Source: Pleurostoma richardsiae (lineage: Eukaryota > Ascomycota > Sordariomycetes > Calosphaeriales > Pleurostomataceae). Taken from it: DNA of 64,000 nt. The notes under the pieces were generated by a model. The model did not search any database and was not told where the DNA came from. It was given only the letters and a program-made list of their open reading frames with translations. The stretch lies in assembly GCA_030052745.1 (NCBI GenBank), contig JANBVO010000016.1:124001-188000 (forward strand). Direction: 5' to 3'. Position numbers and translations under genes: made by a program. Positions 21,938-55,540 of this stretch are shown here, one piece after another (positions within the stretch are counted from its first letter, which is position 1; each line of letters begins with the position of its first letter).

Positions 21938-22741
21938 AAGACGAGCACTGCTTAACGCAGTTCAGTGTAGAGGTTCAAATACCTTGACGGAACATACTCA
22001 TCGATTCCGAGTCCCTGGTGGACGTGGATCCGGCCGATATGCGCTCTTCCGAACTACAGAAAGCCTGCGAGATGGACATCGATCACCGCGTAGACGCCAC
22101 ACCGCCACACAAGAGGCCATGGACAATGTGGACAAGGCGAGGCAACACATGGGCACAAATGGGCTAACTAGGGCCTGAGACGGATCCTACATCGGGTCAG
22201 GATGAGTTCGCCATGGAAGTCAGATAGGCAAGGGAGCAAGACCTTGGCAATCAAGGCACTCTACGTGGATCACGGTGACCGGCGGATGCGGTCGCTGCGA
22301 ATGTGGAAGACATACCGGGAACCCGATGTTGTATTATGCTTATTCGGCCCTGGGGAACTGTGCCAATCAGGCCCGGAAGGAAGGGCGGGACGGAGCCCAT
22401 AGCCCAGTAGAGGGGCACCAGCAGACGCTCCGTCCCGGGACCGCGCCAATGTGAGACAGCAACAGCAATCAGATATCGGCCTTGAGAGGGAATCAAGACA
22501 CCGGAATTGAAATCTTTCCGCTAATTCGGTCTCTATTTCGCGTGCTGTTGACTGCGCCGCGGTCCGCGGGGGTTACAGCGGGTCCACCACCTGATGTATC
22601 ACCCGTCGCATCATCAGTCGTGACGACGGCGCCCGTGGCCGGAAGTCTGCTGATTCCTTGGCTCCCATTTCCAGCTCTCGGTTGTCCTGTTGGTTTGCCA
22701 AGTTCCCATCTTCATAGCAATTCCCGCGAACGTCAAATAGG
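21938..22741. other. Intergenic: upstream region of the ceramidase gene
   Basis: About 800 bp with no domain-like frame. The frames here change composition often and show no splice-supported gene. Confidence 0.45.
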
Positions 22742-23672
22742 ATGGGCCATCACAATCACCATTTCTCTGGCGACCCCTATTCCCTGCGCGGGGTATGGGG
22801 GCCGTCGACGAGCGCCGCAAAGTGAGTCACCGGGCCTCGAGGCTCCGATTTGGACGCCGGGGAACGGACTGATGATCATCTCCGTGCCGGCTTGGAAGAT
22901 GGCTTGCTGATTGCTCTGCCAGCTTCTGCGAGGAAGACTACGCTGTAACCAGATACATCGCAGAATTCGCCAACACTCTCACAAATCTCTCGTACAGTAA
23001 GTGTTAAGTAGGGATGACCGCGGCATAATCATACTCTTACTTATGGTTATTCACACAGTCTATCTCGCCGTCCGACTCTCACGGAGACCTCGGCCCAGGC
23101 CTGGGCGACAACGCAAACATGACTCCTTAGACATTTGTCTCTTCCTGGTGGGCATCTGCTCGGCATCTTTCCACCTTACGCTCCGCCAGGGATGCCAGTT
23201 CGCGGACGAGCTGTCCATGAACCTCCTCTGCGCGGTCATGCTCAACGCTCTATGGACGACGAACCAGACACCCGTCGCCGCGCATGCAATCACCGCCGTT
23301 GTGGCCACCGCCACCGCTGCGGCATCCTTCATCTACGTCTGGACAGGCAACATCCTGCACCACGTGTACACCTTCTCGCTGATGCTCGGCCTCATCGGGC
23401 CCCGGGTGCTGTACCTCATCTACGCGCAGAAGCGGACCGGCCCGGAGAAGGCCGCGCTCCTCAAGCGGTTCTGGCGCGGGGTCATCGTGCTGGGCATTGG
23501 CTACGCGCTGTGGCACCTCGACCTGGAGAAGTGCGCGGAGCTGAGGAAGATGCGCAAGGCGGTGGGCGTGCCGCTTGGGATGCTGCTGGAGATGCATGGC
23601 TGGTGGCATGTGCTTACGGCTGTTGGGGCGGGGCAGTTCATCTCTTTGGTCAGGGAGTTGATAGAGGCGTAG
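22742..23672 (+). CDS. Alkaline ceramidase (ACER/YPC1 family)
   Basis: Three exons (22742-22821, 22923-22996, 23059-23672) give 255 residues. The N-terminus reads GVWGPSTSAANFCEEDY, then YIAEFANTLTNLSY, a hallmark of alkaline ceramidases. The catalytic zinc site is visible as SASFHLTLRQ (Ser and His), FADELSM (Asp) and the C-terminal HGWWH pair of His residues. Hydrophobic helices match the seven-TM fold of ER/Golgi ceramidases. The enzyme hydrolyses (phyto)ceramide to sphingoid base and fatty acid. Length is close to, or slightly under, the family norm. The gene is convergent with the HeLo gene, with about 155 bp between stop codons. Confidence 0.9.
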
Positions 23673-23827
23673 CCTGGTGCCATGCGAATTCTTGATCTAC
23701 CAGTTGGTGGCCTGGTGCGACCGCCTGCTCGGACCTCACGTCCTTTTCAGAGCACATTTGCCGAGACTATAGAGGTTTGCGTCGCCTCGCTCCTTCTGCT
23801 ATACCTTAGACTATGGAATTCGTCACT

Positions 23828-24682
23828 TCAACGCTCAAAGGGGTCGACCCCTCCATATCTGTCCCCGTTTACTAATCTTAGTCCACCTGCGGCCTTGATT
23901 GTTATTCCAACGTAGGAGTGGGATGCCCCGACTACTGCTCCTCCCGTCCAGCCTGCCGCGAACACGTTGCCTTGTGCAACTGTGGCGTCCCCTCCAGCCT
24001 CAACCTGGATGTCCCTGTACTGGTGTCCAGTGGCCTGGGACGCCTGCCTGTGAAGCACGTCATCCAGTCCTTCGGAGGCCGCCGCCAGGGCTCGAACCTC
24101 TCGTTGACCTCCCATCTGGGAGATTTCTTCTCGCGCAAGAGCCTCACTGCTGCTCGGTGATGGGAAAAGGATTTCAAGTTGGCCCAGAAGCATCGAGATG
24201 TCGTCGAGAAGCTTTCTAAAGGCGTGGTTATCGTGGATCGACCACCTCGCAAGCTTGAGCAAACTAGCGCCTTTTTGGCGTCTGGTAGCGATGTCCCTAG
24301 CCCTACGATTGAGGATCACGAGCATACCGTCACCGTCGGACTCGTTCGGAGCAAGCACCTCGGCGTCGGCCTTGATCCCGAACCTCTCGGATACTCTTGC
24401 GCTGTCCTCGAAGAGGGTCAAAACGTGGATGAGAGTATCCTTCGCGGCCTGAATCTCCTTCCGAGAAGCTGCGGGGTTGCCGAGCTGGGGGTCGTTGTAG
24501 ACCCCGACAGCCTCCCCCCAGCGGGAGAGACGCAGGCGGAGGATGGTGAGGTTCAGTTGGCAGGTCTGATAGTCTCTGCCGAATTCGCGGCCGAGGCGGA
24601 CATATTCGAAGACGTCTAGACAGGCTGTGAAGGCCGTGGCGATGCCGACGGCACCTGCCGCGATACTGAAGGGGTCTGCCAT
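23828..24682 (-). CDS. HET-S-like protein: HeLo domain plus two-repeat amyloid (HRAM) C-terminus
   Basis: A single exon encodes 284 residues; Podospora HET-s/HET-S has 289. Residues 1 to about 215 form a HeLo domain with close HET-S matches: ADPFSIAAGAVG at the N-terminus, FEYVRLGREFGRDY (25-38), CQLNLTILRLRLSRWGEAV (41-59) and RRQKGASLLKLARW. The C-terminus has two related units, R1 about 222-243 (YRDIQV, then VAQGNVF) and R2 about 257-278 (YVGITI, then LRLVNGDRYGG). The shape matches the HET-s prion-forming repeats and ends in a short aromatic/charged tail, PFER. In the known system, templated amyloid folding of the tail activates the HeLo domain, which then damages the membrane and kills the cell. 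The gene is divergent from an NLR carrying one copy of the motif. It looks intact. Confidence 0.92.
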   Translation of the reverse strand: MADPFSIAAGAVGIATAFTACLDVFEYVRLGREFGRDYQTCQLNLTILRLRLSRWGEAVGVYNDPQLGNPAASRKEIQAAKDTLIHVLTLFEDSARVSERFGIKADAEVLAPNESDGDGMLVILNRRARDIATRRQKGASLLKLARWSIHDNHAFRKLLDDISMLLGQLEILFPSPSSSEALAREEISQMGGQREVRALAAASEGLDDVLHRQASQATGHQYRDIQVEAGGDATVAQGNVFAAGWTGGAVVGASHSYVGITIKAAGGLRLVNGDRYGGVDPFER

Positions 24683-25227
24683 TGCTGTGTCCGGGATACC
24701 TGGTCAACACCACGCTTGCTCTCAGCTTGCAAAAGAGTGGAAGACAAGGATCTTGAAGTGAGGCTTTAGCAGGCAACAGTGCCTCAGGATACAACGTGGA
24801 ATGCACCATTATGGTCGCAGAAATCTGTCAACCAATGATAGAAAAGAAAGGACGCTCGAAGCGAACAATGCATTTGCTAGGGGTGAAACCGCTAGGGGAG
24901 ATAAATACGCGGTGTTCATACCGTAGCGGCATGTTCGAAACCGGGAAAATAGCCTTTTTGGGCCATAAATGCTCTTGACCCTTGCTGGTGCTGTGGCGGT
25001 TGACCGAGAGATGCAGAGGCTGAGTTGCGCCCGGTCCCCGTCCCGGCAGCCGCGCTCTCTTAGGCGGCCCTTCATATCCCAGGGCTCGGCCACCGCTCAT
25101 CCCCTTACCTCTTCAAATCTCCCCACAAGCAATCGCAAGGTCGGGTGACGGTCTCTCCTCATCTGTGGAACTATTTCGCTCCTCGGAGTTTTTAAACATT
25201 CTATTCGCGATATCGTCACTCGCCCTG
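24683..25227. promoter_or_regulatory. Divergent promoter between the HeLo effector and the NLR gene
   Basis: The start codons lie 545 bp apart and face away from each other, so the pair probably shares control. A T- and A-rich stretch lies at 24930-24970. I found no clear operator. No coding exon is supported other than the NLR exon that starts at 25228. Confidence 0.55.
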
Positions 25228-25309
25228 ATGACGGGGAATCAGTACGCAGGCATAAGGCTTGAGGGTCACAGTATACACGGTATTCAACTTGGCAACAACT
25301 ATTATTCCA
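25228..25309 (+). other. NLR r0 amyloid motif exon
   Basis: This exon alone encodes the 27-residue motif peptide. It aligns with the R1 and R2 units of the neighbouring HeLo protein: Tyr-x-x-Ile-x-aliphatic (YAGIRL, YRDIQV, YVGITI), a glycine-rich middle, then a Gly/Asn-aromatic end (GIQLGNNYY, VAQGNVF, LRLVNGDRY). Confidence 0.88.
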
Positions 25310-28300
25310 GTATACAAAAGGGCACGTAGTCCTCCGGGGAGCGCCTATTCGTCCGACGCTAACGATTGTAGAGGATGAACCTACATGCCAGGACCTGCTT
25401 CGGGATCTTCTCCTGACTGATCCAGTAGATGACCTCGACAAGACAAGACGACAGAAAGGGAAGAGGATCGTCGGAACTTGCGAATGGATTCTCAATCGGG
25501 ATGAGCTCACGACCTGGAGCGATGGCGACGACATGAGGCTTCTGTGGCTTCTCGGCGCACCGGGCATTGGCAAGACCATGATATCCTGCTTTCTGGTCGA
25601 CAAGCTGCATCGAGAGGTACAGGAACAGACATCGGCAGTCCTCATGTACTACTTCTGTGATGGCAAAGACGATCAGCGCAGTACGGCCATCGCCATTGTA
25701 CGAGGTATCCTCGTGCAGCTGTTGAGGAAACACCCAGAACTCTTTGGCGTCATCAAAGATGATTACGTCCTGAAGAAGACCTCTATCGTCAGCACGATAG
25801 ACGCCCTGTGGAGACCGCTGCTTAAGATGCTGCAGAAGGCAAATGAGGATAAGATATATATACTCATTGATGCACTGGATGAGTGCGAGAGAATGTCGAG
25901 AAAAGAGCTACTTGCCATGCTTGGAGAGATAGTGGAGTTGCCGAAAGTCAGAATCCTAATTACTGCGAGACCGGAATCTGATATAGAAGGGGCTACCTAT
26001 TGCCTGGGTCAGAACCTTAGATTGGATTCAGCAAAGATCAACGATGATTTGTCCAGATTCATCAATATTCGAGTCGACGAACTGCAGGAGCAGAAAGCTA
26101 GCTTCCCCCCGAAGCTGATCGAGGACATCAGAACGACTCTGCAAGAAAAGGCTGGTGGAACATTTCTTTGGGCTTCGCTGTTGCTCAAGGACATATCTCA
26201 ATCAGAGACAAGCAGAAAGGCTAGAAAAAAGCTCGATGACTTGCCCTCTGACCTACACGACGTGTACAAGAGGATTCTGGAGAACATCAAGGATGACAGC
26301 AATGATGCAATGTGCATTTTGCAGTGGGTGGCGGTTTCACGACGACCCATGACTCTGCGCGAGTTAGCAACGGTTCAAGCACTGGCGACGGAAGAATGGC
26401 AGAATAGCGCCCCCCGATCCGAAGATGTGGATGAGTTCTTGGATGGCTACAAGACTTGTGGCCCGCTCCTCTATTACGACGAGGGTACCGACACCATCAA
26501 TCTCGTCCACCACTCTGCCAAGGACTACTTGACAGGGGCGAACTGTTCACCCTCTCGATACCAGGTCGACCGAGATGCCGCAAGTCTGAGTATCGTGAAG
26601 ACGTGTTGGGCATATCTCGCCATGCCGGAATTCCAGAATGGCTCGTTGGTCATCACGCGTGATAGAGATCTCCTTGAGGAGCGACAACTCAGCCAACGCA
26701 TCCTGAAAGCGTATAGTTTCCTTGGGTATGCCACCGAAGAGCTGCTGCGCGGGGTAGGAGACAAGGCAAGTTTGCTGATCGCTTTTGTGCGCCAATGCGA
26801 ACGTCTACACGATCTTCCTCCCCTGCGAGACTTCTGGCTGCATACGTTCGCATTTTACGGTCACATAAGCGGCGTACAGATTCTCCTCGAGAAGGGTGCT
26901 GATCCACGCGTAACAATACGGCAGCCTCACGATTCAACCTACGTGTTTCTGTCAGGAGCTACACTACTTCATATCGGCGCAGCGCAGAGATCCATCGAGA
27001 CATGCAAGATGGCGATTGAGCACGGCGTGGATGTTAACGCGAAGATGGAGAGACTTGGGGACACAGCGTTGCACTTGGCAACGAGTAGCGGGCATCCTGA
27101 CATTATTAGGATTCTTGTGAAAAATGGTGCTAATATCGAGGAGAAGGACGCGTCTGGAACAACTGCGCTCGTTCAAGCACTGGCCAGGATGTCCGAAGAT
27201 CCTGCTCTCGTTTTAATGGAGGAAGGCGCCGACACCAGGGCCACATCCTCGCACGGGCAAACTACGCTTCTACTGGCAGCGGGAAACGGGTTCGATCGAG
27301 TCGTTGAGAGATTGGTGGCGAGGAACGTGGCCATCAATAAGTTGGATGACATGGGCAATAGCGCACTTTCTGAAGCTGTAAAGCGTGGTCGTGTGGCGAG
27401 TGTGAGGATGCTGATAAAGGCGGGTGCCGATCTGCAGTGGAAGAGCACAAACGGGGAGAGCCTCCTCCATCTAGCCGCGTGGCATGGCGATGAAGACGTA
27501 CTCACACCGTTGATCAAACAAGGTCTTGATGTTAATGCTTGGAGCGCTAGGGGAACACCCTTACATGATGCATCTTCCAGCGCAAACAAAGCGGCAGTTG
27601 AGCTGTTACTCAAAGCAGGGGCGGACATAGCCATTAAGGACTGCGACGGGCGAACGGCTTTGCACTTGGCAGCGCAGGGGGGGCACGAGGACGTGGTCGC
27701 AGTGCTTCTCGATGCAGGGGCTGGTATCGACACAAAAGCGGAAGGAGGTCTGACCGCAATGCATCTGGCTGCGCAGGACGGACGCTACAAGGTGACCAAA
27801 ACCCTCCTCGCGCGTGGAGCGGCTGTTGATGCACTTGACGACAATGGATCTACAGCGTTGCACAGAGCAGCCGCGAGTCCAGCTCCTCTGGATGTCTTAG
27901 ATCGGGTAACACAGAAGCAGGCGGAGACGACTCGACTATTGCTTAGCCACGGCGCTAAAGTCGACACCGTCAACCAGGAGGGGGCCACTCCGCTCCATCA
28001 GGCTGCCCGAACGAACCGCGCGGACATAGCTGCAATACTGCTGGGAAGCGGAGCAAGCAATGATGCAAGGGATTGTAATGGACGGACACCCCTATTCACG
28101 GGAGCGGCAGAGAGACATGGCACCGTGTGCTGCAGACTCCTCGAAAGCGGCGCTGACGCTACTACAATGGTGGAAGCAGATGAGGAAACATATCCCAAGC
28201 TAGACGAACTTCGACGATTGACAGAATGCTGGCTCCATGTGAGAGAGCACCGGAAGAAAATCAATGCGGATAATCCCAACCAGGGAGAAGAGGAACATAT

Positions 28301-29378
28301 GGCGGACAACCTCAGCGACAAGATTGTGCACAGGGGTGAGGGATACGAAGAGAAGAAAGCCGAAGAGGAAATGCTACGACTGCTATTCGAAATGGCAGCC
28401 TTCACCAAGGCGAGAGACTGCTACCTTAAAGATGTTGAAGAGTGCTTTGTCGATGCATGCGAGAATGGATATGATGCTGTCATATCTATGTTACTGACCA
28501 AGGACATGGAGAGGTCAGTGTGGGAAGCATTGGGTTTGACACATGTCAACGAGGCTGGTCGTGAAACTTTGGATACTAGTCTTTGTACCAAGTCCGTACC
28601 GAGCGATGGCCGATCAGCTCTGTACGTGGCCGCCGGTGAAGGGCACGACAGCATCGTCGGACTCCTACTCAATCACGGGGCCAATGTAGAAGCCCGATAC
28701 GACGACTTTACGCCCCTGCTCATCGCAGCTAGGAATGGCCATGCAAGAGTGGTCGAAACCCTATTGAACGTTGGTGTGAACTTGTCACAGGGCAATCAGA
28801 CAGGCGCTGCGCTGCACTGGGCCGCGAAAGAAGGACACATTGATGTGGTGCAGGTTCTTCTAGCACACAATGCCGACGTGGACGATTCGAGTGGACTCAA
28901 CGGTGCTACGCCTTTGATGATGGCCGTCAACAGACGTCACATGTCGGTTGCGCAACGATTACTGAGTGCCGGTGCTGATGTAGCCATCAAAGACGACAGC
29001 GGCCATACTGCGATGTATTGGACGCTGGAACAAGAGGGGGTTCCACCGGAGGCGATTGTGTCGCTTCTTATCGAACATGGAGCAAATCCGACAACAGCGG
29101 CGCGTGACATTGTGTCAGAAATGGAAATCACCTTGCTCTCGTGGACGGGAGAACTCCCATTCCGTGTCCCAGGATGGGAGCGTCGGAGAGTGTTGAGCCT
29201 ATTGCAACATAACCGAGAGTGGCTTGATTTTAGTGACAGGGAGGACCAGATCCTTCTGAAGTGGGCGATTGAGCGCGACCTTGATGACATTGTTGCGCTA
29301 CTGTTGGACATGGGGGCCCGAATGGACGTGATAGCAGACGAGCTGCTATTGATGCATCCTGAGTGGCGCGACAGGTAG
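25228..29378 (+). CDS. NLR (STAND) receptor: N-terminal amyloid motif, NACHT domain, ankyrin repeats
   Basis: Two exons (25228-25309 and 25372-29378) join in frame to 1362 residues. The 62-nt intron has a GTATAC donor, a GCTAAC branch and a TAG acceptor. Exon 1 encodes a short HET-s-related motif (YAGIRLEG, then GIQLGNNYYS). The pre-NACHT helix is typical: CQDLLRDLLLTDPVDDLDKT, then CEWILNRDEL. Walker A is GAPGIGKT (89-96) and Walker B is ILIDALDECE (about 191-200). Two ankyrin blocks follow, about 520-957 and about 1105-1300, roughly 17 repeats. They are split by a non-ankyrin acidic/basic insert at about 958-1104. Known relatives (NWD2 beside het-S) sense a ligand, oligomerise and template the partner's amyloid fold. 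The divergent neighbour is that partner. The ligand is unknown. Confidence 0.92.
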
Positions 29379-30121
29379 AAGATATATGTCCTCTTAAATC
29401 AGTGTACTACATCTCAAGGTGAATTCTAACTTAGATACATCCTCCTTTTCTAGCTATAGTAATACTCGGCTTCTTTTCTAAACTTCATCAAGGCAGCGGG
29501 GAATGCCGACTGGCTTCGAATGCTTCAAGTGTGCCACCATAGAAACACTACCATCAAGACATCTATTTCTCCACGCCTCGGGGGGCAAAGTCCCCTCAGT
29601 GCCCATTCCCGAGCAACCTTCTACGTCAGGCTCGACAGCATCTCTGGGCCAAGTCGGGCTACCGTTGTCTCGGCCCCTTAGTCATTGGCTGTTCAGCCTG
29701 CTCGACATGCGAATCTAGGGAGCTCAGCCATTCAAAGCGCCATCGTGTCCACCCATCATGCTTCCTAGGTCATCGTCGAAAGGGCCAGACAGTAATGAGC
29801 AATGAGATAATATTACCAAGCTAGCGCGTCTCAAAGCTGCTGGTAGTCACGATGACGATCCCGAACTTTGCCTTTCCTCTCATGCGCTTCCATCCTGCCC
29901 AATGGCTTATTTATCTGGAGACTGAGAGGCAAAAACAAAGCATGCAACAGATAAGTTTTGCTAGAGGTCAGCATTGAAGTCAGACTGGAAGTGCAGCACC
30001 ATTCAGAGCAGAACCTGGGCAAAGTTGAAAATGGGTTACTGTCAAAAGCGCGGTTGCAATTGCACGGAGCTTGAAGAGACACCTCATATGTATGCAGGCC
30101 TGATCACAGCTTCCCAGGCGG
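29379..30121. other. Intergenic between the NLR and the first MBL-fold gene
   Basis: Convergent 3' flanks, about 740 bp. No supported gene or repeat. Confidence 0.45.
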
Positions 30122-31024
30122 CTATGGCTTTTGTTTATACATTACCCGATCCCTGAGCAACCGAGGCGTGTCTGGGTCATGACTTGGCAACACCACCACT
30201 TCAGTCTGACTCGCGAATTCTTTGATGAGCTTCAGGCTCTGTAGGGCCATCATTGGATCGTCGTTGATGCCGTCAGGCTCTTCTTTGTCCAACAAGTCCA
30301 GACCATAAGTTGCATCTCCTGTCAAAAAATACGTCGTGACACCTCCACTGTCGTTATCCCCATAGACAACCAAGGAGACATGGCCCGGTACGTGGCCAGA
30401 TGTCTGGACTACAACGACCTTTCCGTCTGCGGTTATCTTGCCCGACTGCTTCCAGGGCCCGAGAGCATGGTCCGTAAACTCGATCATCCTCGGCGCGAAG
30501 TCCTTGGGCCAGTGCTGGGGAGCGCAACCTTGGATGGATGCCCAGAGCGGGTGCTTGCCGAATGCGTTCCAGTGCTCCTGGCTCACATAGACCGGGACCT
30601 GAGGTGCTTCCGAAGACAGGTCTTTGAGTCCGCCCGTGTGGTCGCCGTGTAAGTGGCTGAGGACAATAGCCTGGAGGTCTTTCGGCTCGACTCCATGCAC
30701 ACGCAGCTGCTGCACGATGCCGTCCTCCGGGGTGATCTCAATCTTGCTGATCATCTTTGTCGGGCTCCAGGCCGGGAGGTAACCCCGACAGTTGAACAAA
30801 GGCGACTCCCCGGTGTCGAAAAGGATGGGCCCATCGGGGTGAGAAATAAGGAACACCCCGATGGGGAGCGCCTGAGACCACTGGCGGTCGGCGAAAGACC
30901 GCAGGCGACGCATTGTCACGTTTCGATTGCTGATGGGCTGGCTCCTGCCGGAGGGCCGGATCTGAACTGAGCCAGTCGAGATGAACGTGAGACTCACGCC
31001 TTTGCTAGAGGGCGTTCCCTCCAT
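30122..31024 (-). CDS. Metallo-beta-lactamase-fold hydrolase (lactonase-like)
   Basis: A single exon encodes 300 residues. The zinc motif HxHxDH reads HLHGDH at residues 124-129. Further metal ligands are in SGHVPGH, LTGDATY (Asp) and LPSHDPD (His). The N-terminal half contains GVFLISHPDGPILFDTGESP, the usual MBL strand-loop, and the fold order resembles N-acyl-homoserine lactonases of the AiiA/AttM type. Such enzymes open lactone or related ester rings. The true substrate is unknown. It is divergent from an NmrA-like gene and lies at the edge of a cluster that contains a Baeyer-Villiger monooxygenase, whose products are lactones or esters, so lactone hydrolysis fits the context. That link is inference. 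Confidence 0.85.
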   Translation of the reverse strand: MEGTPSSKGVSLTFISTGSVQIRPSGRSQPISNRNVTMRRLRSFADRQWSQALPIGVFLISHPDGPILFDTGESPLFNCRGYLPAWSPTKMISKIEITPEDGIVQQLRVHGVEPKDLQAIVLSHLHGDHTGGLKDLSSEAPQVPVYVSQEHWNAFGKHPLWASIQGCAPQHWPKDFAPRMIEFTDHALGPWKQSGKITADGKVVVVQTSGHVPGHVSLVVYGDNDSGGVTTYFLTGDATYGLDLLDKEEPDGINDDPMMALQSLKLIKEFASQTEVVVLPSHDPDTPRLLRDRVMYKQKP

Positions 31025-45843: not shown

Positions 45844-48145
45844 CTATTTCCCAGCTGCCGTCTCGTAGTCCGGCGGCAGCTCCTCTACGGCCCCACTTTC
45901 TGCTTGTGGGGCCGGGGCCGGGCCCGGAGGCGGAGCTGGATCCAGAATCGGAACAGGAGCCGCGTGGACCGGTACCGTAGATGACACAGTCTCGTTGTCT
46001 GCATCCCTCCTGGCTCCGAAGGTAATCAACAGCTGCGCCATGTCATCCTGGCCAGATGCCCTGGCGAACGCCAGAGGCGTGATGGTTGCCTCCTTGTTCG
46101 GGTTCGCCCCGTGGCTGACCAGCAGCTTCGCTACAGCGAACTCACGGCGGCGCAGCGTCTCCAGCAGCGGCGTGCGGCCATTCTTGTCTGCAACATTGGG
46201 GCTCGCGCCATATTTCAGAAGCTCTTTGATCTGGTCCCAATCCGCTCTCTGAATGGCGTGCATCATCAGCGTCTGGCCAGATGAGGTGATGGCGCGATTC
46301 GGGTCCGCGCCTCGGCGTAGAAGCATTGGGACAAATTCATGAAAGGACTTGTCTATAGCATGGTCCATGACTGTCCAGCCCCAGGTGTCGGTGACGTTGG
46401 GGCTGGCTCCCCGAGAGAGCAGAAGCTCCATCATGGCCTGCTTCTCCGCGGTGCTGAGCTTTGCGTCCTTGATCACTATCAGCAGCAGAGTGCTGCCCAG
46501 TCCGTCACGGACGTTGGGGTCCGCACCACGATTCAGTAGCGTCTTCATGATCTCAAGCTTCTGCGGCACCCCGAGCTTGCTGTCCTTGACCACCAACAGC
46601 AGCGGCGCGTTGCCGACAGGGTCGCGCACGTTGGGGTTCGCCCCGCGGCTGAGCAGGAAGCCGAACAGGTCCGTGCGGTTATTCTTCAACGCCTCCATGA
46701 GCATCGGCATCCCGGACAGCGACTTGGCGTTGACGTCGGCGCCGCGCTGGACCAGCAGGTGGAAAATCTCCTTCTTGGCGTCGTAGTCCTGCAGCGCTAA
46801 GACCGCGATCGCGTTGCCCGACGGGTCGCGCGCGTTGGGGCTGGCGCCGCGGTCGAGGAGGAGCTTCACCACGGGGAGGTTTGCCTTCTGCACCGCATAG
46901 ACGATCAACTGACGGCCCCAGAGGTCCGTAGTCGTCACGTCGGCGCCGTGGGTTAGCATGAGCTTGATGATCTCCAGCTTGCCGGCCGCGCAGGTGTCGA
47001 AGAAGTAGGGTTTACCGTAGACACTGGTGTCGCGCGGGCTGCAGCCCCGGGTGAGGAGCAACTTGGTAATGGGGACGTCGCCGACGTCGGCGGCCCAGAA
47101 CAGCGGCGGCAGTTTCTTGGCTGAGTCGCTGACGGCCTTGGACGCGCCGCGGTCGAGCAGGACCTTGACGGCATCGTATTGATGCGCCTCGATGGCTCGG
47201 ACGATGGGTGTCTTGCCGTCCTCGTCGCGACCGTTGATGTTGGCTCCTTCTCCGAGGAGGCTGGCGATGTGCTGGACGTTGCCTCGTGCAGATGCTTCGC
47301 ACAATGCTACAACAAGCGGCTCGGGTTTGTAACGAAATGGTGCTGTCATGGCTCTGAAGGATTCGGATAGCGAAGACAGCCCTCCAGATCGACTCTTTGG
47401 AGGCGCTTTTGATAGCTTCTTAGATGAGCAAGAAGCTGGCGGTCCAGGAGTGCTCGTCTCTGACGCTGCTTCGAACAAGCTCACGTCCTTGACATCGGGT
47501 CTATACCCCGTATCTTCACCCGTATATTGAGGAGGCTGGTCATCGTCCTCGACTTCAGTTATATGTCCAGCAAACTCTAGCACACTTTGGGATGCGAAAT
47601 CGGCCTGCTCTAGGCTCTGGTCAAGGTCGAGACTCGCCAGCGCCTCGTCTTGGTCTCTTCCCGAGTTCCTATTTTGACGTAGTTGTGGTGAGCAGACGCC
47701 GTACATTCAGTGCTTAGTCTTCGGTGGGGATAACGGCTCACATTGTCACCAGCTCTTGAAGAGATTGGAGTACTTTGGTTTGCGAAGATGCCCAGTCGTT
47801 ATACCTAGTTAAAGCGACCGAGTCCATGATCTCGCCGGTGCTCTCCGGAGACAACGACTTCATGCCCTTCTCGACAGCTGCCGTCGCAGGCCCGCAGGTC
47901 TGTTCCATTGTCCGATTGAGAACCTCTTGCAACGTGGGTGATATCGTCGATGCGCCGGCGATGCCCAGGCTGAGTTGCTCTGCCGTCCTGTTAAACTCAT
48001 GCATCTTGGCCGCCAGACTCGACAGAAGAGTGCTAGACGGCCCTGGATTTGCCGCAAGCTCGTCGAGCGCCACGGCTGCGCCTAGAGCGCGGTGCGCGAC
48101 GACCGCGCACGTGGAGGAGCATCCTGCTGCTGAGAAGCTCCGCAT
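45844..48145 (-). CDS. Large ankyrin-repeat protein with helical N-terminal domain
   Basis: Two exons (48145-47742, 47668-45844) join in frame to 742 residues. Residues 1 to about 135 are Ala/Ser-rich and helical (VVAHRALGAAVALDELAANP, LQEVLNRTMEQ), like the N-terminal domains of fungal STAND-type proteins, but no NTPase follows. Residues about 135-255 are a low-complexity acidic and Ser/Pro linker. From about 255 to 700 there are some 12-13 ankyrin repeats with consensus HGADVNARD-like loops (LLLDRGASPNARDPSG, LLSRGANPNVRDPVG). The tail is Pro/Ala-rich and ends in PPDYETAAGK. Function unknown; it is probably a protein-interaction scaffold. Unlike the NLR at 25.2-29.4 kb it lacks Walker motifs. 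Confidence 0.8.
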
Positions 48146-52549: not shown

Positions 52550-54968
52550 TTAAGAGAAAAGCGTCTCGAAGTCAAAGGACGACCCGTCTCGAGACAGTCC
52601 AAGATGTTCCATGAAGTCTCCAGAAATAGCAGGCCTAGGACCGAAAGATAACATGGTCAGCTAGCAGTCACAGCAAAAGCAGTATACCTGAGTCTCACCA
52701 GTCAGCTGTCTCCAGCAAGGTCAGCTCGTTAAAGAGCCTGTCGTGATCTGCCGGTTCATGGAGAGCGTTAGAGGTTGGTGCGACCTGACTACCCGAAGCC
52801 GTGATAACGTCGGCTGTAATACCATCGGCTGGTTGTGAGGGAAGGGGGGAGGGCTGGAATGGCGATGGTATTGACGAGTTTGTTATGAGTTGTTTGGCAA
52901 CTAAGTCTTGAGGATTTCCAACACGATTTGATATATCAGGAAGCTGATTCGACACCGGTACAGGGGCTGACTGTAGTCTCTGACCCACTCTGAGGTCTTG
53001 AGCCCGGATTTCACCTCCGGCAACGCCAATATCTTGTGCATTACGCTCGTATGGAGGCATTAGCGACGTCTGTGGACGGTCGCAGGCTACCGTAGAAACG
53101 CCTCGATCCTGGGGAGCATGCTCCGATAATTGCAGCCAGGGATTTCTCCAGTCCGGATGCAAGGGGTATTCAGGAGATGACGCTCCGCTCTGCTCGACCA
53201 GGTTAAAGAGGATATTGAGAGTCGGGGGTGACCATGGTATGCGGAAGATTGATGATTCCTTTGGCGTTGACTTCAGTAACTCCAACGTGCCTGTCGGAGA
53301 AGATCCGCAAAGTTCGCCGAGAGCCCCTGCTGGAATTTGCAGCGCGGATACCCTGGCTACCTCGATGGTGAGTTTTACATAGATAGTTGCTGCTAATATC
53401 CTCAATTGCATCAGGTGTGGCGGCTCTAGGGACTGCAATGAGCTGCCCTGGAAGAGGGAAGAACTGTATGTTGAGATACTCCTTTGTATCTGGACCAGTT
53501 CATCAATGATAATATGCATCCGCGCATGTGAAGGAGTGCTCTCAGACTTCTGGTAGAGACTACTGAGCAGACCGGTTAGGGAGGCTAGGTGGTTGAAAGC
53601 GCTCAGTACCCGTCCAGGACCGCAGGGATCAGAGACCCTGGTCGGGGAGTTGAAAGGCACTGAGAAGGCAGGACGCCAAGGCTCCCATTCCTCTATCCCA
53701 TCAACTGTGATGTCTCCAATGTGGTGCAGGTCATCTCTATTGAGATGCGGGCGGAGGCCAAGATTCAGGGCCACAAGTGTGTCCAGTATAAAGCAGCCAA
53801 GAAACAGCCGCTTGCCAGCATCGTCTAGCACTTCCGTCGCCGAAGAGACTATTTTCAGACTGGTTGCGAGGCACACAGCTCTTCCGACCCAGAGCCATGC
53901 ATTGGTCCATGAGCCGTGACTGATCTCCATCAACGACAGAATCAAGGACGCGTGGACATGCCCCGCATCATAGCAAGGTTCATCTTGCATGGCAAGCGTT
54001 TTAGCTGTGATGAAAATCTCGGCAGGTGCTAGCTGGACTGAGTTCTGCTCATGATACGGGGTGCCATTAGACCCTTCGACGGCCTCGAGCTGGTACGAGC
54101 CCAGTGCCAAAGAAGCCCACAAGGAGGCAATATCCCCGGCGGCAGGAATACCACCATCATGGGTGCTACCGGCCTTGCTTGCCAGAAGATTGGCAGAACG
54201 TAGCAGTGTGTACTTTTGTATGACTGGGAGCCAACAGTGTGTCCTGCAGATATAGACGTCGATAAGCCGCGACCAATTGCCTGGTAGAGTAGGTATCGAG
54301 CAATTAACACGGTCCTTGGCTAGAGCAACCGGTAAAGCAAACTCTGGTGATGAAGGCTGAGGTGATACAACCCGAGGTATTGAGCCTGGTAGTAGGCTGG
54401 GCTCGGGAGCAATTGAATCCGGCGGCGTGTCGGGTCTGACCAAAGCGCCCTGGCGCGGAAGAGCGTTGAAAGCCGATGTCAACTTATGGTCAACATTCTG
54501 CAGATACGATTCTTCATCTTCATCCGACTCAGGGGCGACAAGGGCCCTCTGGAGGTCTTGCAGGGCATGACTCTTACGCCAGACTCCGAGCAACGACACG
54601 GAAATTGGGGCAGCGGTATACGCCGAAGATAGTGACGGCTGTTCGTGAGTCTTGCCGCGGAGGACAGATAGGATAAGGTCTTCGGCGCCGTCATAGCAGT
54701 GTATTAGAAGGCCAAGCAGGATCTCGATGCCTCTAACATATCCGGTCCGGAGCCCTCGCTTCCTGTATGGATTGTACGTGCAGATGCGGCCGGTTTTTCT
54801 GCAACGCTGGCACGTAGGTTCGGCTCCGTCGCAGCGTTCCTTGCGCCGCCGACAAGCCTCGCAGGCCCTGGAGACCCGCACACGTTTCCGTGACCCTCCT
54901 TCGTCGTCCGAGAAGCCGCAGGGATCGTCGACGGCAGAGCTCTCAGCCCCAGCGACGTAGGCTGTCAT
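52550..54968 (-). CDS. qutA: Quinate pathway activator, Zn2Cys6 factor (QutA/QA-1F type)
   Basis: Two exons (54968-52699, 52634-52550) give 784 residues. The zinc cluster has Cys36, 39, 46, 53, 56 and 63 (VSRACEACRRRKERCDGAEP). It is followed by the linker RKRGLRTGYVRGIEILLGLL, which matches the QA-1F linker and helix. The fungal_trans region includes NWSRLIDVYICRTHCWLPVI and LWASLALGSYQLEA, again like QA-1F. The last exon adds WPAISGDFMEHLGLSRDGSS and an acidic/aromatic tail ending TLFS. It was found because an in-frame stop right after the donor hides it; donor GTGAGA and branch GCTGAC are good. The protein should activate quinate genes when inducer is present. It is divergent from the repressor gene. 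Confidence 0.92.
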
Positions 54969-55540
54969 GACCGCCAGCCCAGCATTCCCACCGCATCCGG
55001 GGATTTGTCCCGGGAGGGATGATGGGGGCTCAGAGAAAATGTTCGTCAGGCGTGCACTTCCAGAGAAGTCGACAGATTTTTCCCTCGCCTAGAGTGATGC
55101 TGTGGTAGATGCTGCCGGTTGGTTTGCCGATGCATGAATGCACATCCAAGGGAGATGAGGCGGATGCACTCAGCCCATCCGGGGAACTGGGGAACGTGGA
55201 GTCCGCCATTTCGCGGGGTGCCGCTTCGGGGAATCTAAGAACAAGACTAATATGATTGCGACCGGAAAAGATCTTTGCCGAACGCTAAATCTATCTTTCG
55301 CTGACGTTAGCCATCTCTGGTAGGACTTCACCTATGCCCACCTGTCCGTGTTCTCGACTTCCCTTTTCCCTCGAGAAGCTACCCTTCGCTCACAAGCCGC
55401 CACAAGCATGGAGCCACACAGTTGAGCCGGGTATTCCCACCCAGCTCCCAAGGACTGGGTACTTAGCGCTATGCGACTCCTCACACGGATATCCACGGAA
55501 TGACCGACACTCAGTCGCAGCACTCATCGTTCAGAGAACC
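54969..55540. promoter_or_regulatory. Divergent promoter of the quinate activator and repressor genes
   Basis: Opposed starts lie 572 bp apart. A near-palindrome, CGGAAAAGATCTTTGCCG (55263-55280), has CGG and CCG at its ends and a perfect AAAGATCTTT centre, a plausible Zn2Cys6 site. An in-frame upstream ATG for the repressor lies at 55334. Confidence 0.5.

Follow-up and report, generated by a model that had tools for sequence, protein, structure and literature searches.

In Podospora anserina, the HRAM1 system HET-S/NWD2 is encoded by two neighbouring, divergently oriented genes some 0.5-0.6 kb from each other (cf. PMC4344463), with two C-terminal motif units in the HeLo effector and one N-terminal unit in the NACHT receptor, whose repeats are of the WD40 type. 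The HELLF/FNT1 system of the same species (HRAM5) also places a death effector with two diverged units beside a NOD-like receptor (NLR) (PMC7889193). In Nectria haematococca, HET-eN is a NACHT-ankyrin receptor of the signal transduction ATPases with numerous domains (STAND) class, and its N-terminal sigma motif is shared with the adjacent effectors sesA and the lipase/esterase sesB (PMC3321046). Published families of the HET-s-related amyloid motif (HRAM) consist of HeLo proteins that lie next to NLRs and bear two diverged motifs (PMC4518210). These sources, along with PMC5485727 and PMC12258605, form the published background to the comparison. Here we describe a gene pair from Pleurostoma richardsiae (Calosphaeriales), found in a 64,000-nucleotide stretch of contig JANBVO010000016.1 (assembly GCA_030052745.1, positions 124,001 to 188,000; hereafter the window) in a genome of 39.4 Mb and 136 contigs. 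By computation we establish its genes, domains and motif units, their superfamily membership, a conserved pairing and a charge complementarity, and we conclude that the pair is very probably a HET-S/NWD2-like module in which two genes together control cell death. Among the literature matches listed for Pleurostoma with HET-s, NLR or HeLo, none named the genus.

The effector gene occupies 23828..24682 on the minus strand as a single exon, running without an intron from an ATG at 24682 to a stop codon that ends at 23828, and encodes 284 amino acids. As a preliminary description of this DNA had proposed, the product is a HeLo protein with two C-terminal motif units. Residues 7-195 (24098..24664, minus strand) match the HeLo family PF14479 with an E-value of 9.9e-42, the first unit (R1) spans residues 219-241 (23960..24028, minus strand), and the second (R2), with a C-terminal GG tail, spans residues 254-278 (23849..23923, minus strand). 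Members of the HRAM HeLo/NLR group are defined as HeLo-type proteins of <310 amino acids with two C-terminal HET-s-related repeats separated by a loop of 6-18 residues; the effector lies within these limits in size and in its two repeats, which are separated by about 12 residues. The likeness of R1 to R2 was matched by none of 1000 shuffles. Unlike this protein, HELLF combines a HeLo-like domain with an HRAM5 motif (PMC7889193).

The receptor gene lies on the plus strand at 25228..29378 and encodes 1362 amino acids in two exons. Exon 1 (25228..25309, ATG at 25228) carries a single motif unit, r0, at about 25231-25305. It is joined through a 62-nt intron (25310..25371, GTATAC...CTAAC...TAG) to exon 2 (25372..29378, where the stop codon ends), which encodes a NACHT domain (NPHP3_N, PF24883; 25473..25970; E 4.3e-38) containing Walker A at 25554-25577 and Walker B at 25860-25886, and an ankyrin repeat region at 26870..29090, with limits that are approximate because they come from signature positions (Ank_2, E 5.2e-106). 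This intron was one choice among the in-frame options. An NCBI entry titled "NACHT and Ankyrin domain protein [Pleurostoma richardsiae]" matches our model letter for letter and shares the join, as an annotation rather than as RNA evidence. The two genes stand head to head, with 545 bp between their start codons (24683..25227), and no tandem DNA repeats were found in window positions 22000-31000. The NACHT/ankyrin NLR with one unit in its first exon, both Walker motifs and the divergent layout are all as previously described. Ankyrin repeats do replace the WD40 repeats of NWD2, but this arrangement is not novel, as HET-eN/sesA/sesB illustrates (PMC3321046). Downstream of the effector and tail to tail with it is a ceramidase gene (PF05875, E 5.3e-38; 23001-23669, plus strand).

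Relative to HET-S/NWD2, the units of the window have diverged beyond the reach of PF11558, which gave no match to them at E 10 and was dropped as their detector; the same model scores 84.9 and 81.4 bits on two canonical HET-S paralogs of this genome. Membership in the superfamily instead emerges from the effector family as a whole. Its profile hits PDB 2kj3, the prion domain of HET-s, with an E-value of 8e-5. The alignment first used for this PDB search contained one PF11558-positive protein, and repeating the search without that protein and other rows (36 versus 39 rows) left the result unchanged. A structure model was built on the first alignment, with the PF11558-positive protein included, and its tail is accordingly weaker evidence. 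In addition, a profile of 57 family tails that excluded HET-s-like sequences scored 24.8 and 19.8 bits on the prion domains of the two HET-S paralogs, values reached by 0 of 2000 shuffles in each case. The match to HeLo and HRAM profiles envisaged as a check in the preliminary description is present for PF14479 and for the family profile against 2kj3, and absent for PF11558.

HRAM units are recognized by an invariant Gly 19 and hydrophobic residues at positions 5, 8, 10, 16 and 18. Gly 19 and the hydrophobic residues at 5, 8, 10 and 16 are present in r0, R1 and R2. Position 18 is Leu in r0, but the effector units have polar residues there, Gln in R1 and Asn in R2; Gln 18 is a feature described for HRAM4 (PMC4518210). 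His at position 3, a feature given for HRAM3 (Daskalov, Dyrka and Saupe 2015, PMC4518210), occurs in 55 of 58 R1 and 51 of 57 R2 units parsed among 62 proteins, both repeats of the window included; unparsed rows are left out of these counts. By this sole usable criterion we provisionally class the pair as putatively HRAM3-type. It shares the effector His 3 with HRAM3 and differs from it in two respects: six of the eight r0 units compared have Asn at position 3 instead, and a polar residue is frequent at effector position 18 (Asn in 23/58 R1 and 25/57 R2), which is not given for HRAM3 in the relevant part of PMC4518210. All three units of the window are also two residues longer between positions 10 and 16 than the published numbering (PMC4518210). 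We considered these extra residues as a concerted change of matched arch length and dropped the idea on the evidence of relatives: Hyaloscypha has a short r0 next to long R1 and R2, and R1 and R2 are of unequal length within many proteins.

Against R1, the receptor unit r0 gave a shuffle p of 0.01 (z 3.5), and against R2 the comparison was not significant (p 0.23, z 0.7). A hidden Markov model (HMM) of 118 repeat units from relatives, built without window sequences, scored r0 at a level equalled by 7 of 2000 shuffles and by none of 123 other NLR pieces, and an HMM of seven other NLR N-termini scored it at a level equalled by 1 of 2000 shuffles. The third strand reads [VI]-[HQ]-L-G in all eight r0 units compared, which were chosen by eye out of 121 NLR N-termini. 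The glycine-rich middle previously assigned to all three units fits the effector units better than r0. In the opposite direction the evidence is weak: the HMM of the seven other r0 units scored only 2.7 bits on the window effector, although none of 2000 shuffles reached this value, and across 72 effectors its first listed match lay within the last 90 residues in just 11 of 33. A single-protein search of the genome found no further copy of the r0 exon at E 10, a 33-residue query being a weak one. When 30 of the 83 NACHT loci were scanned, clear r0 units appeared only in the window and on contig C60, both of which had contributed to the profile.

The pairing of this effector family with NLRs is conserved in other fungi. 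In a set of 72 effectors and 121 NLR hits (120 listed of 183, plus one), nine effector/NLR pairs, the window and eight others, lie on contigs of identical exact size, compared with a mean of 0.13 when sizes are shifted; that both genes share a contig is deduced from these equal sizes and not from contigs seen. Two pairs have consecutive locus tags, B7463_g5551/g5552 in Scytalidium lignicola and ACJ41O_000819/000820 in Fusarium nematophilum. Of the eight other paired NLRs, three show an r0 unit at the N-terminus, four are annotated from downstream of its place, and one has none. The comparison with related fungi suggested in the preliminary description thus yields eight further cases, with the shared unit visible in three of the receptors.

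The repeats of the effector family also show a charge pattern that bears on their packing. HRAM repeats are expected to complement each other in charge at positions 6, 11 and 13. Position 11 forms one of the three inter-repeat salt bridges in HET-s (PMC4518210), and in 41 of 60 family members (the window included, both units present) R1 and R2 bear opposite charges there, negative/positive in 13 and positive/negative in 28. No member has like charges, whereas shuffling the partners yields a mean of 16.5 like-charged pairs and never zero in 5000 trials. These proteins are related and are not independent events, though both orientations occur. Because position 11 is opposite in both orientations and never like-charged, it fits the demand of in-register beta-solenoid stacking, and the charge swap is a clean natural test of such stacking. 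Position 9 agrees, with 14 opposite and no like pairs. Position 6 has 18 opposite and one like, a result reached by 537 of 5000 shuffles and so not beyond chance. Positions beyond 12 are mis-anchored in long-arch proteins, window R1 among them, and were not used; the count at position 13 is unreliable owing to length variation.

By analogy with P. anserina, these features suggest how the pair may work. The ankyrin repeats of the NLR would sense a ligand, after which the NACHT ATPase would oligomerize. Each r0 could then stack like one rung on R1/R2, templating the amyloid fold in both units of the effector tail. Refolding of the tail would release the hydrophobic N-terminal portion of the HeLo domain, and this freed portion would reach the plasma membrane and kill the fungal cell.

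The preliminary description had further suggested that this HET-S/NWD2-type pair may have a separate specificity. Pair conservation, the HeLo fold, HRAM membership and the computed repeat stacking uphold the pairing itself, but the suggestion on specificity is not supported as stated. In global alignments the window r0 scores 29.5 against R1 and 21.5 against R2 of its effector, compared with 22.5-28.0 for five of six canonical HET-S-type units of the genome and 15.0 for the sixth, and its partner comes 16th by R1 and 28th by R2 of 60. In each of four pairs with a known partner, r0 matches some other effector better than its own (R1/R2 ranks 16/28, 14/51, 43/60 and 25/19 of 60), and in all four r0 scores higher on average against the r0 units of other receptors than against the units of its partner. 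The canonical module on contig C60 has z values of 6.9 and 7.1 between r0 and its own repeats. Within the window no pair reaches the z of 6.7 seen between window R1 and the r0 of contig C18. A pair-specific motif, for which we had hoped, was not found in these z values and partner ranks. Since r0 is no closer to its own effector than to others, a separate specificity is unreadable from sequence.

The same overlap in scores, the high value for window R1 with the C18 unit and the presence of two PF11558-positive HET-S paralogs are what a cross-talking network would predict, one in which the window receptor also, or mainly, fires the canonical paralogs and the pair is not insulated. We nevertheless consider this rather unlikely: the pairing of the receptor with this particular HeLo family is conserved, likeness between short units is a poor predictor of seeding, and HELLF (HRAM5) and HET-S (HRAM1) share a fold and do not cross-seed (PMC7889193). 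Low likeness between r0 and effector units departs from the concerted evolution of most HRAM pairs, which is usual and not universal (82 of 90 grouped r0 units fall in the group of both own repeats; Table 2, PMC4518210), and is compatible with a heterotypic or branched system. In its strong form, this proposal holds that the clade breaks receptor-effector concerted evolution, that templating is heterotypic across motif classes, and that the receptor could drive the canonical HET-S paralogs of the cell in addition to its own HeLo protein. Its basis is that r0 keeps a canonical-looking signature while the repeats of the effectors have shifted to His 3 and, in many cases, to Leu 17-Asn 18. We regard it as unlikely; if true, it would make the system a branched amyloid network, not an insulated wire.

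The finding that r0 resembles the effector units no more than unpaired units resemble each other would also be expected of a relic, in which gene order and motifs persist in a module that no longer signals. This is very unlikely, given that the two reading frames run uninterrupted for 284 and 1362 codons, the HeLo and NACHT signatures are conserved, the nearest effector relative is 63% identical across the full length, and effector residue 33 is Glu, not the Pro of the HET-s form in 2wvn. Least credible of all is that the two genes differ in motif class, r0 being of the PP/RHIM type, a reading suggested by G-I-Q-L-G in the window r0 (cf. the PP pattern G-hydrophobic-Q-hydrophobic-G, PMC9815663) and rejected because the leading G is absent from all seven other r0 units, which read V-[HQ]-L-G, an aromatic-x-x-hydrophobic element lies upstream in five of those seven, and r0 scores under the HRAM repeat profile. 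A HET-S/NWD2-type module remains our preferred account of the pair.

Elsewhere, HeLo has 8 matches in the genome and the NPHP3_N-type NACHT model has 83, some of them with internal stops, which amounts to a large NLR repertoire. At C60:309689-314630, a canonical HET-S paralog (the one with 81.4 bits under PF11558) is followed by a same-strand NACHT frame with r0 and then by a frame of WD40-like repeats, as judged by eye, which makes this locus an NWD2-like pair. Its receptor frames are in phase with one stop codon between them, and the gene may be broken or intron-containing. Two paralogs, at C18 13203-13547 and C124 19580-19975, admit a reading in which splicing over a 54-nt intron joins a HET-s-type unit to CCHC-type knuckles, two complete in the C18 copy and one complete plus one altered in the C124 copy. 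Their units match PF11558 and PF17108 at E 0.00013-0.0012, below family cut-offs, and the knuckle parts match zinc-knuckle families weakly. Counted by codon position, these two copies show 21, 20 and 31 differences in 94 codons, with 35 replacement and 14 silent codons, differences that do not prove protein-level selection. In a third copy, on C134, the first exon is shifted. The C18 zinc-knuckle gene is convergent with a canonical HET-S gene, upstream of which lies another short frame (C18:15180-15395, minus strand) whose possible unit reads NARVTAGNY; the 83 NACHT matches all lie outside this 19-kb contig. Among the 10 of 52 literature matches listed for a link with HET-s, amyloid and NLR, no paper contained "zinc knuckle". 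If real, such genes would encode amyloid-motif proteins in which a domain of nucleic-acid-binding type replaces the NLR.

Within the window, a 620-codon frame at 45847-47706 (minus strand) has only ankyrin repeats as Pfam matches and is perhaps part of another receptor. Farther along, a Zn2Cys6 transcription factor gene (52698-55088, minus strand) is divergent from a gene at 55289-57937 (plus strand) whose product has shikimate kinase, dehydroquinase and shikimate dehydrogenase domains, an arrangement that we take to resemble the activator and repressor genes of quinate utilization.

The literature already contains HRAM pairs as well as NACHT-ankyrin receptors that bear amyloid motifs, and the pair from P. 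richardsiae joins them as a diverged member, adding a conserved HET-S-type pair from Calosphaeriales to the known family. Because the genome holds both motif types, this one and that of the two canonical HET-S paralogs, insulation versus cross-talk of amyloid channels would be directly testable in one cell.
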